Source of the DNA: an uncultured Mycoplasmatota bacterium
GTDB lineage: Bacteria > Bacillota_I > Bacilli_A > RF39 > UBA660
Direction: 5' to 3'
Assembly (NCBI GenBank): GCA_946413985.1
Contig: CAMKMS010000008.1
Coordinates: 1-42,757, forward strand
Length of the DNA: 42,757 bases
The position numbers and the translations under genes are program-made. Positions 1-41,530 of the stretch are shown piece after piece. The notes beneath the pieces were generated by a model. The model was not told the DNA's origin, ran no database searches, and saw only the letters and a program-made list of their open reading frames with translations. Within the stretch, counting starts at the first letter, position 1. Each line of letters opens with the position of its first letter.

Positions 1-2133
1 ATCTTTTATACTTGAAACAAATGCACTATCATAATTTGTTTTATCATCACTACATGTATCTTTTATATTTGTTCTTAAATTATAATCATCACATGTTCCA
101 TGACATTTTACATTTATTATTTCAAATTCTTCTTCTACTGGTGTATTTAAACGATTATTATCTGATGAGCCTTCACTTATACTAAACATTACTTGACTTT
201 CATCTGGATTTGCACAAGAAATATATTTTTTTACAACATTTGAAGTATCTGACTTAGTATATTTTAATTTTACTTTTACCCTCTTATTATGTCTTTTTTC
301 ATAATCACAAATTGCAAAACTATCTTTGATTTTAACTCTACAAAAATTCTTATAACAATATGCTGGTGTACGTTTTGATTCGCTATACTCGGTTAATTCT
401 CGTCCATCCTCATCAACTAATACAGCAGTTACTTTACAAAAAGGCTCTATTTGTTTCTTTTGTTCACTTGTGATGATTCTATTATTAACCATATCATCTA
501 ATTTAGTACAATCTATTTTTTGTTTTACTTCTTTTGTTATTTCTTCTAATTCATCAAATTGAATTTCTATATATTGAGATTCTTTATCATTAGATACTTC
601 AGTAACTAAATTAACATTATCAACATCTTCAGAAACTCCAGTTCTAAATAAATTATTAAAATCTTCTTGCATTTTGCTATTACCAAGTATTGTATTAGCA
701 AGAAGAGCAAATCCTAATTTATATTCACTTGTTTGTCCACAAGCAACACCTAATAAATCTGAATTACATGCTATAGAAAAACCATTTAATTCTTCGTCAG
801 TTAATTCAGATGGGTCAATTTTACTTGATAATCTTACTGCTGAAAATAAATATCTAGCAAAATACCTATATGTTTGTTTATAAATATTTATTATTTTTGT
901 ATAACGTAAGCTTGAATTACAATTTGGACCTGATTTATGAGAAATTCCAAGCTTAGTAAATCCCGCTTGATTTGTATGTACTCCCCATAACCTAAGTGCA
1001 AATTCTATTACTTTATCAATTCTTTTTTTATTTGCATCACTAACTGTAGCATTTTTTAATTTTTGACCTTCGATTAATATATTTGCATATCCACAATCTA
1101 CCGTACTATAACTACTTGAACAATCTTTAACATTAAACGATGTATCTACTTGATACTCAGCTACACTAGAAAAATCTTTTGAAAAATATAGTCCTGGGTT
1201 TACACAATAAACTCTATCACCACTTGCTTGTTCCTGAAAACTAGGTGTACATAAATCATAATTTACATTACCTACTCTTGTACAATTATAAACTGGACAC
1301 CAAAAAATATATTGAATATTATAAGGAATACAAGTAGGACCATAATTAGAAATACATAATGTCAAGTTTTCAATTGTATCTAATGCAGTAAATCCAGTAT
1401 TAAGGTCAAAATCTTTCTTATATTCAACATAATTTGGCTTTTTACATTTATGGTTATCTAATAATTCATCATCATTATTACAAGAATAGGTTACATTTTC
1501 GGAAGGACAATAAGTTGTTGTAGTCGTGGTTGTACATTGTTCAGTACAATTTAATTGTGCTTTCATTTTCTCAACATTGGGATTTGTAATTAAACCGCCT
1601 TGAGTAGTTGCATTTCCATCTTTATTATTACTTTCGCATCTTTCTACACAACTACTATCAACACTTGTTACTGTTTTTTCCTTCGTTTCTGAACAACCTT
1701 CTGTTGCATCATAATTAGTATAATATACAAACTTCATTATTCCTTGTAAATAAGCATTTGAATCTGAACATACTTTTCTTAATTGACTTATTTTTGCTTT
1801 TTCATCTAGAGTCATAGTAGTAATTTCTTCTAGTTTATCACCAGCTTGAGAAGCACGTTCTATAGAATGTGTAGAACCAACAAGAGTCTGATAAACAGTA
1901 ATAATACTATTTTCATAAAATTTTTCAAATCCTTTTAAACCTTGATCAATTTGTTCATAATGATCCAATTCAAAATCTGTACATACAGGTAAATTAGCAC
2001 TTATGTATGCAGGGGATGCCTTACTTGTTTCTATTATTGACGTTGGATTAGAACATTTTAAAGAAGCATATACTTTATCTATAAAAAATAATGAACTAAT
2101 TATTAATAATATACTAAATACTATTTTTTTCAT
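1..2133 (-). CDS. Large secreted Cys-rich surface protein, thioester-domain-like (3' end outside window)
   Basis: The frame is open from an ATG at 2133 to the window edge: 711 codons with no stop, so the C-terminus is missing. A GAGG ribosome binding site lies 7 bases before the ATG. The N-terminus is a clear signal peptide: Lys-Lys, a hydrophobic core, then V-Y-A with likely cleavage after residue 23. The mature part is rich in Cys and Asn/Thr, with a run of six threonines flanked by cysteines near residue 205. Around residue 310 is VYCVNPG, and near residue 389 is RLWGVHTNQAG. In Gram-positive thioester-domain adhesins a Cys in a Y-C-x-x-x-G context crosslinks to a Gln in a T-Q-x-A motif. 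The resemblance suggests such a domain, but this is inference from short motifs. Its attachment signal, if any, would lie off the window. It sits downstream of nrdG but is separated from it by a terminator. Confidence 0.8.
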   Translation of the reverse strand, partial: MKKIVFSILLIISSLFFIDKVYASLKCSNPTSIIETSKASPAYISANLPVCTDFELDHYEQIDQGLKGFEKFYENSIITVYQTLVGSTHSIERASQAGDKLEEITTMTLDEKAKISQLRKVCSDSNAYLQGIMKFVYYTNYDATEGCSETKEKTVTSVDSSCVERCESNNKDGNATTQGGLITNPNVEKMKAQLNCTEQCTTTTTTTYCPSENVTYSCNNDDELLDNHKCKKPNYVEYKKDFDLNTGFTALDTIENLTLCISNYGPTCIPYNIQYIFWCPVYNCTRVGNVNYDLCTPSFQEQASGDRVYCVNPGLYFSKDFSSVAEYQVDTSFNVKDCSSSYSTVDCGYANILIEGQKLKNATVSDANKKRIDKVIEFALRLWGVHTNQAGFTKLGISHKSGPNCNSSLRYTKIINIYKQTYRYFARYLFSAVRLSSKIDPSELTDEELNGFSIACNSDLLGVACGQTSEYKLGFALLANTILGNSKMQEDFNNLFRTGVSEDVDNVNLVTEVSNDKESQYIEIQFDELEEITKEVKQKIDCTKLDDMVNNRIITSEQKKQIEPFCKVTAVLVDEDGRELTEYSESKRTPAYCYKNFCRVKIKDSFAICDYEKRHNKRVKVKLKYTKSDTSNVVKKYISCANPDESQVMFSISEGSSDNNRLNTPVEEEFEIINVKCHGTCDDYNLRTNIKDTCSDDKTNYDSAFVSSIKD

Positions 2134-2204
2134 ATTAATCCTCACATTGTATTCATAATTATTTTACCAAATATTTAATATAAAATCTATAATTTCCAAT
2201 AAAT

Positions 2205-40489: not shown

Positions 40490-41530
40490 TTATAAATCAG
40501 ATGTGCTAACTATTATAACAGGGCGTAAAAAATTAGCGCTAAAAAAATTTCCACTACTAAAAACACCATGTGGCCAATAGCAATATAGCACTTTATTATC
40601 TCTTGCAGATCCTAGCCAATAATCACTACTCTTTAATGCATTCTTAGCATATAAATTTGTTGAAGTATGCATTGTATTTGCTTCCTCATATGATAACAAT
40701 CTACCTGTTACTCTTACATCAGTTGCATTTGAAATTTTATTTGTATATGCATTAATATATGAATACAATGAACTGTTGCTATCATATACGTATGGATAAG
40801 GATTATTATACCTAGTACCATATGTATTTTTTATTCCACTTGTTCCAGAACAATTCCAAGAATTGCCATCATACGAATAATTACAATTATCCCAATATCC
40901 AGTTTCAGAAAAAACAACTTTATCTGTATTTAATAAAACTGATGATTGACTATTTAAAGTAGTAATTATTGCATACTTTGTTAGCAATATTGTTTCATTT
41001 TCATCACTACTTACTACATAAAAATTTTCATCTGCAATTGTCAATTCATCTCCAGAAGTTATTTTATCTGGGATTTGTCTTGTAACAAACTTAGCAATAC
41101 TTCCAGAAATTGTTAATATATCATCTTGACTAATACTTGATATCTGAACTACATTATCTATGTCTTCTATTTTTAAATCATTACCAACATATTCATATTG
41201 ATAGGTTCCATCTGTTGCTTCAAATTTAACTATATTACCTGCTTTATTTATTTTTATATAATAATCTATTTCTTTTCTACCAGACATTTTAAGTGGATTT
41301 TTGCAGCCATCACCACATTTAGAATAAATTTTATATTCAGTCTCATACATAGAATCATTTATCCATTGTTGTTGAGCAGTTTTTACTATTATTTTAATTT
41401 CCGTTGTAAATGAATTCTTTTTTGCTTCATTAAATAAACTCATTATATTTGGTAATGCTATTATTACTAGTATCGCTAAAATTGCAATTACTGCTAGTAA
41501 TTCCACCAATGTAAAACCTTTTTTATTCAT
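40490..41530 (-). CDS. Prepilin with an extra C-terminal domain (candidate pilus-tip or adhesin subunit)
   Basis: A 346-residue protein. The N-terminus is a prepilin: KGFTLVELL with processing after Gly5 and Glu at mature position 5, then a hydrophobic helix. From about residue 150 comes a larger domain, with SGDELTIADENFYVVSSDENETILL followed by a C-terminal block with YWLGSARDNKVLYCYW and LRPVIIVS. That block resembles the bacterial C-type-lectin-like or DUF6273-type modules, in which Y/F-W-L and R-P-V recur. It could display a binding domain on a pilus. The ribosome binding site AGAGG precedes the ATG at 41530. It is divergent from the gene at 41635. The prepilin assignment is firm; the domain name is tentative. 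Confidence 0.85.
   Translation of the reverse strand: MNKKGFTLVELLAVIAILAILVIIALPNIMSLFNEAKKNSFTTEIKIIVKTAQQQWINDSMYETEYKIYSKCGDGCKNPLKMSGRKEIDYYIKINKAGNIVKFEATDGTYQYEYVGNDLKIEDIDNVVQISSISQDDILTISGSIAKFVTRQIPDKITSGDELTIADENFYVVSSDENETILLTKYAIITTLNSQSSVLLNTDKVVFSETGYWDNCNYSYDGNSWNCSGTSGIKNTYGTRYNNPYPYVYDSNSSLYSYINAYTNKISNATDVRVTGRLLSYEEANTMHTSTNLYAKNALKSSDYWLGSARDNKVLYCYWPHGVFSSGNFFSANFLRPVIIVSTSDL

Follow-up and report, generated by a model that had tools for sequence, protein, structure and literature searches.

A probable giant class II-like thioester domain in cysteine-rich proteins tied to Tad-like filament loci of an uncultured gut genus

Thioester domains (TEDs) have been described in Gram-positive surface proteins that are mostly sortase-anchored, and according to the accessible parts of PMC4450167 and PMC6194298 the Gln that forms the bond sits on the C-terminal strand of the domain. 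The same portions of these papers assign the sequence TQxxPhiW to a helix, the Gln of which is neither the bond-forming residue nor essential. In the part of PMC4450167 available to us, the reactive Cys is placed in the motif [YFL]C-Phi-zeta, and the Gln motif is described as weak and, in class II domains, frequently hard to discern.

The closest described relatives of the protein reported here are the class II TEDs of the TIE proteins BaTIE (6fwv), EfmTIE86 (6fwy) and SaTIE (6fx6), which it resembles in the fold ranking given below, in the position of the domain after the signal peptide, in the [YFL]C-Phi-zeta Cys and in an invariant Gln located C-terminal of the helices. In contrast to the roughly 250 residues of these domains, the giant domain comprises about 650 residues, and it further differs by its Cys content (31 in the window protein), by a hypervariable insert and by an Ala in place of the helix Gln. 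Moreover, unlike in TIE proteins, no stalk of isopeptide or ester repeats was matched and no LPXTG end was seen. Conventional TIE-like proteins with short TEDs are likewise present in the same genus or family (L102-L105, L108 and L109); they carry the Cys motif YCIEP and the Gln motif QNM or QNQ with a Cys-Gln spacing of 174-176 residues. These local proteins have Cys and Gln motifs in common with the giants but no profile match, and they differ by their short TED, which has a TQ- or AQ-xx-[IL]W helix and precedes sequence that looks repeat-like by eye.

Two further systems bear on the gene neighbourhood of the giants. A language model has predicted an operon in which CpaF, PilC/GspF and DUF5411 are joined by a protein that has a cell-invasion domain (PMC9523054, accessible part). 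A CpaF-like ATPase, a PilC/GspF-type membrane protein and DUF5411 are common to this operon and the loci of the giants, and the likeness of the operon partner to a cell-invasion domain is also counted among the similarities. The operon was reported from three Clostridia genera, and the accessible text names no thioester domain, whereas here a giant TED protein is encoded in a DUF5411 locus. With the Gram-positive Tad/Flp loci, as described in the accessible part of PMC3244431, the giant loci share a secretion ATPase, RcpC/CpaB-like proteins, proteins in the TadB and TadC positions and pilin-like open frames. They differ from them by the additional giant, a DUF6568 protein and a class B sortase, and by proteins in the TadB, TadC and Flp positions that are not recognised by Pfam or NCBIfam. 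Within a library of 5.39 million papers, a full-text literature search for 'Tad pili' together with 'thioester domain' returned no paper joining the two.

The window, i.e., the whole stretch of DNA analysed, corresponds to the entire contig C8 (1-42757) of a genome of 1.19 Mb. Reading of its open frames revealed a 711-codon frame on the minus strand that runs from 2133 to 1 and ends at the contig edge. It opens with an ATG at 2133 preceded on its 5' side by a GAGG-type ribosome site, and a GTG is also in frame at 2145. The features of this gene and of the encoded protein (P0001) are as follows.

1..2133, minus strand: truncated gene of the giant Cys-rich protein with the predicted thioester domain, 711 residues visible (sequence and family alignment)
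2134..2156, minus strand: 5' leader with ribosome-binding site; the same bases stand upstream of the paralogue on contig C26
2065..2133, minus strand: signal peptide, residues 1-23 (sequence reading)
1348..1953, minus strand: hypervariable Cys-rich insert, residues 61-262, which precedes the Cys strand (alignment; fold position from the model)
1198..1209, minus strand: Y309-C310-V311-N312, matching the published [YFL]C-Phi-zeta thioester-Cys motif (alignment)
985..1002, minus strand: helix F378-A-L-R-L-W383 at the place of the TQxxPhiW motif (alignment; spacing compared with published and local TEDs)
967..969, minus strand: Gln389, the earlier candidate bond residue (Gln in 14 of 31 members)
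193..195, minus strand: Gln647 in SQVMF, the proposed bond-forming Gln (31 of 31 members)

The original prediction had described a secreted protein of more than 711 residues with many Cys and thioester-adhesin-like motifs. Its general features were borne out: a signal peptide is present, 31 Cys were counted in the visible part, and the frame leaves the contig, the full-length proteins of the genus comprising 1126-1601 residues. An unusual stretch given as C6-T-Cys does exist, its actual sequence being Cys-Thr7-Tyr-Cys (residues 200-209) inside the insert. The two proposed motifs, VYCVNPG and HTNQAG, correspond to residues 308-314 and 386-391, respectively.

The gene has nrdG and nrdD next to it, with an intergenic join of 104 bases to nrdG; further along, the window encodes an isoleucyl-type tRNA synthetase, uvrA, spoIVA and secA, the gene names being assigned from family matches. 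With neighbours of this kind, the window seems to be ordinary bacterial chromosome. A protein of 346 aa in which the type IV prepilin N-methylation motif (PF07963) was recognised is also encoded at 40490-41530 of the window, and two proteins encoded on C26 (L043:10076-13189) have an N terminus that resembles it by eye.

The window protein alone gave no credible match in Pfam, NCBIfam and PDB sequence searches and no match in a contig scan for relatives, which were found when the alignment was used as query. A PDB sequence search with a profile of 20 members likewise yielded no match. In the same genome, one paralogue on C26 is 58% identical and almost complete, and a second one on C5 shows 41% identity over the matched part; employing the 20-member profile, relatives were detected in every one of the 18 genus genomes. 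Given these two paralogues and the relatives throughout the genus, the open frame is far beyond chance. The alignment used below comprises 31 members from the 18 genus genomes, of which all but P0001 and L043, both cut, are full length (29 proteins). It contains a main subgroup (n = 21), in which the Cys motif is YCVNP or closely similar, and a divergent subgroup (n = 10). Within the wider bacterial family, 64 of 145 genomes match the profile, mostly with the C-terminal part alone.

The copy in the window is located outside a filament locus, and it shares with the C26 copy a leader, 23 bases long or more, that has no third site in the genome assembly when up to 3 mismatches are allowed. The two copies are identical at 117 of 156 aligned residues over residues 506-665 vs 42 of 164 in the insert. 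From these sequence comparisons we read the C8 and C26 genes as dispersed alternative copies, and the one in the window as an extra version of the filament-locus copy. It might be argued that a contig-end copy is a foreign or chimeric fragment produced by assembly or binning: both dispersed copies end at contig ends, the genome is 77% complete and 3% contaminated, and no giant was found beside nrdG in 16 other genomes of the genus, some of the flanks covered being short (all 1.5 kb downstream for 13 genomes, 113 and 232 bases for two, one unmeasured). We consider such an artefact very unlikely in view of the intact start, the leader in common with C26, the 104-base join to nrdG and the occurrence of relatives in all 18 genus genomes.

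Alignment of the 31 members revealed that Cys310 is invariant (31/31) and that the full [YFL]C-Phi-zeta motif is present in 29, the two exceptions being HCVN in L035 and YCLA in L086. The TQxxPhiW helix motif is not matched: the sequence reads FALRLW here, with Ala at the place of the Gln in all 31 members and Trp in 28. Downstream, Gln647 is found in 31 of 31 proteins and is the sole invariant Gln of the whole alignment, although its surroundings vary (the window protein has SQVMF, the C5 copy NQTLF, and some members of the divergent subgroup YQKMI or YQKMV). The published Gln motif Phi-Q-zeta-Phi-Phi is strictly fitted by 8 of 31 members, the window protein not being among them; this poor fit has to be weighed against the published remark that class II domains are often without an obvious motif. 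The spacing between Cys310 and Gln647 is 337 residues vs 129-204 in the solved TEDs compared, as far as their accessible descriptions go.

HTNQAG had been taken as the Gln motif of the thioester, which would pair Cys310 with Gln389. A Gln is indeed present at this position in the window, C26 and C5 copies. However, the column is Gln in just 14 of 31 members and lies right after the helix, whereas the bond Gln of described TEDs is on the C-terminal strand (PMC4450167 and PMC6194298, accessible parts). Because of its presence in fewer than half of the members, Gln389 is unlikely to form the bond, and we consider a Cys310-Gln389 thioester barely credible and rejected it in favour of Gln647 as the candidate partner. 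Thus, the earlier reading is right in kind, with Cys310 retained as the reactive Cys, and wrong in its glutamine.

Residues 24-711 were modelled with AlphaFold2 (mean pLDDT 71.5, pTM 0.58), with pLDDT values of 84-94 for model residues 271-400 and of 88-89 for 611-630. In the model, Cys310 (model residue 287) lies within a strand, and Gln647 (model 624) stands just before the strand 626-629, with a bridge at 623. When the model was ranked by VIA-align against 991 PDB chains, four TED entries occupied the first four places: 6fwv (Z 10.6, 234 aligned residues, rmsd 8.1), 6fwy (Z 10.5, 240 aligned, rmsd 9.1), 5a0l (Z 8.0, 167 aligned, rmsd 4.5) and 6fx6 (Z 7.2, 195 aligned, rmsd 7.9). The best non-TED chain in the same ranking was a mannanase with Z 5.8, so that TED entries with Z 7.2-10.6 stand above the next chain. 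The rmsd is large for the class II entries (7.9-9.1), and a VIA-align Z below 8 may reflect a common arrangement; hence, 6fx6 would not count by itself. The C-terminal half of the relative L045 was subjected to the same procedure and gave weak Ig-like matches alone (best Z 5.8), from which neither an anchor nor a function of this half could be read. Foldseek without VIA returned nothing under E 1e-3, for the window model and the L045 C-terminal-half model alike. In the alignment with SfbI, which ends at SfbI residue 270 and model residue 633, the SfbI bond Gln (residue 261) and Gln647 are each located 9 residues before this end.

In the model, the first strand and the Cys strand flank the insert. 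Over the 31 members the aligned segment varies from 6 to 248 residues with a mean pairwise identity of 0.16. The loop A-B that has been proposed to determine the specificity of TEDs lies at about the same place, according to the accessible part of PMC6194298.

In the members searched, sequence profiles did not reveal a TED above the Pfam cut-off. Solely one of 20 members matched TED_2 (PF20610) over the Cys motif (E 4e-4, 20.7 bits, below the cut-off of 27), and the window protein was without any TED_2 match. Comparison by hhalign of the giant-family profile with six conventional TEDs of the same bacterial family gave a Prob of 0.1 on a scale of 0-100, and no Pfam match to isopeptide or ester repeats was obtained in 20 members at E up to 1. 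Thus, at the level of sequence profiles the TED relationship of the giants is not confirmed.

A further indication came from the number of Cys. If all Cys but one were engaged in disulfides, the mature protein would have an odd Cys count. After removal of signal peptides by a simple rule, and with P0001 and L043 left out, 28 of the 29 full-length proteins of the genus had an odd number, with ten distinct odd values between 35 and 55; the binomial probability of 6e-8 overstates the case since the members are related. The counts are those of Cys gained and lost two at a time while a single Cys stays constant, and certain Cys columns co-vary in the manner of disulfide partners. Within the main subgroup, 20 of 21 proteins have an odd number in the N-terminal half, and the 19 full-length ones an even number in the C-terminal half; in the divergent subgroup (n = 10) the parity of the halves is swapped, as one disulfide across the boundary of the halves would bring about. 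Among the giants of other genera, the number is odd in 4 of 6 with the TED-like Cys motif and in 10 of 22 without it, and parity is therefore not a clean control there; 11 of the 39 Cys-rich proteins had been dropped as truncated, wrong or doubtful, including the cut L089 with its TED-like motif.

Taken together, the structural ranking, the invariance and the odd parity support a predicted TED fold with Cys310 as the reactive Cys. We consider it very likely that the N-terminal 650 or so residues constitute a greatly enlarged TED, nearest to class II, of a secreted disulfide-rich surface protein, and likely that the thioester is formed. It is conceivable, though unlikely, that the fold serves as a structural module alone, with Cys310 as a buried free thiol or a disulfide partner. 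The Ala at the helix Gln in all 31 members, the strict Gln motif in just 8 of them, the lack of a profile match to conventional TEDs and the very Cys-rich context are in line with such a module. On the other hand, neither Cys310 nor Gln647 varies in the alignment, in contrast to their flanks and to many other Cys, parity leaves one unpaired Cys per protein in 28 of 29 cases, and mutagenesis indicated that the helix Gln is not required for the bond (PMC4450167, accessible part). We retain the Cys310-Gln647 thioester as the likely arrangement.

Most relatives of the window protein are encoded in Tad-like loci with CpaF-like, CpaB-like and DUF5411 genes. The C5 locus (L044) is an example; here the giant precedes a DUF6568 protein, a class B sortase, a protein of about 210 aa, a DUF5411 protein with dockerin repeats, two CpaB-like proteins, a T2SSE-type ATPase, two membrane proteins and small as well as pseudopilin-like open frames. 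The sortase matches TIGR03064 above the cut-off, and the ATPase matches T2SSE (4.6e-29) above the cut-off. Below their cut-offs, the latter matches VirB11 (TIGR02788, 8.6e-34) best and TadA (TIGR03819, 1.4e-28) next; the designation Tad-like therefore rests on the gene set. Two CpaB/RcpC-like proteins match TIGR03177 (2e-8 and 5.1e-12) and one matches PF16976 (1e-5), all below cut-off, and the proteins in the TadB and TadC positions fit by size and order; the small open frames (MKEATGELNMT...) are without Pfam or NCBIfam match. In the DUF5411 protein of this locus (L044:6195-7010), dockerin type I repeats follow the DUF5411 part (Dockerin_1, 5e-13); in a class-wide search, the open frame comprises just 132-167 aa in 26 of 31 DUF5411 matches. 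The DUF6568 protein (L044:9412-9939, 1.7e-17) lies beside the sortase, and similar proteins of about 172 aa were seen by eye at this place in other genus loci.

DUF5411 was detected in 27 of 247 genomes of the class, all in this bacterial family, of which four genomes were listed without it. In loci of other genera, picked among the profile matches (33 loci from 31 genomes), a giant stands directly before a DUF5411-like gene in 26, the caller for these genes having been built from 32 genes of the same loci. The seven without an adjacent gene of this type are L089, L152, L094, L143, L150, L159 and L161; in L089 and L152 a contig end lies no more than 300 bases from the end of the giant. Among 18 genus loci, in a scan that left out L036 and L043, the distance between the two genes is at most 200 bases in 8 and 3 to 8 kb in 7, and in three (L034, L139, L140) no DUF5411-like gene accompanied the giant in the stretch scanned. 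In L140:15085-15595, between the giant and CpaB, no DUF5411-like open frame was recognised, which may reflect a diverged or broken gene.

The original prediction had suggested looking downstream of the visible part for a sorting motif or a transmembrane end. By eye, neither was seen at the C terminus of the other 30 members, the protein of L043 being cut, nor was an LPXTG-type sorting signal found in the 30 (P0001 and L043 cut), and we rejected a canonical sortase tail on the giant. Likewise, no sorting motif was recognised by eye in the membrane proteins of about 220 aa. The accessible part of PMC10868615 lists other orders as being without srtA/B sortases; by implication, these enzymes are present in RF39, the presumed order of this genome.

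Outside the genus, a Cys pattern matched in 12 of 39 proteins; after exclusion of cases such as an LCLNP at residue 554 of L146, seven were judged TED-like. The TED-like Cys motif is thus judged present in 7 of the 33 other-genera loci (L087, L089, L090, L091, L093, L099, L158), and in L087, L089 and L099 a profile also supports it (E up to 4e-6). So, as far as the motifs indicate, the thioester domain appears to occur throughout the genus and, beyond it, as a module scattered over a broader class of giants from filament loci. Since no Cys motif judged TED-like is present in the giants of the remaining 26 loci, the role common to the class need not be covalent. The giant could be a non-covalent surface or filament scaffold, the enlarged domain merely binding or bearing load; we regard this as a possible but less favoured reading, against which stands the invariance of the Cys and the Gln in all 31 genus members.

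For the genus proteins, we consider probable the overall reading of a giant class II-like TED with a predicted Cys310-Gln647 thioester, linked to a Tad-like filament. Upon export, Cys310 and Gln647 would form the internal thioester and the remaining Cys would pair as disulfides that brace the enlarged domain. A target amine would then attack the thioester, resulting in covalent binding through Gln647, and the hypervariable insert before the Cys strand may tune the choice of target. The C-terminal half could join the domain to the Tad-like filament or to membrane accessory proteins. Whether the giant is a putative covalent adhesin working with the filament we judge to be evenly balanced. In sum, the fold is well supported and the bond likely, and the covalent function and the filament link are plausible predictions.

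These data point to a very divergent disulfide-rich TED that occurs in each of the 18 genomes of an uncultured gut genus and that gene order connects with a filament-like machine. More tentatively, and in our view rather doubtfully, the system might act as a covalent harpoon, in which a retractable Tad-like filament would bear the giant disulfide-armoured thioester domain as a warhead with an interchangeable hypervariable specificity cassette. If true, a gut bacterium would first form a covalent bond with a surface, be it host, mucin or bacterial, and pull on it afterwards, and dispersed extra copies such as that of the window would represent alternative warheads. The prediction names one Cys and one Gln, and it offers a lead to the function of an orphan protein family and of the DUF5411 operon.
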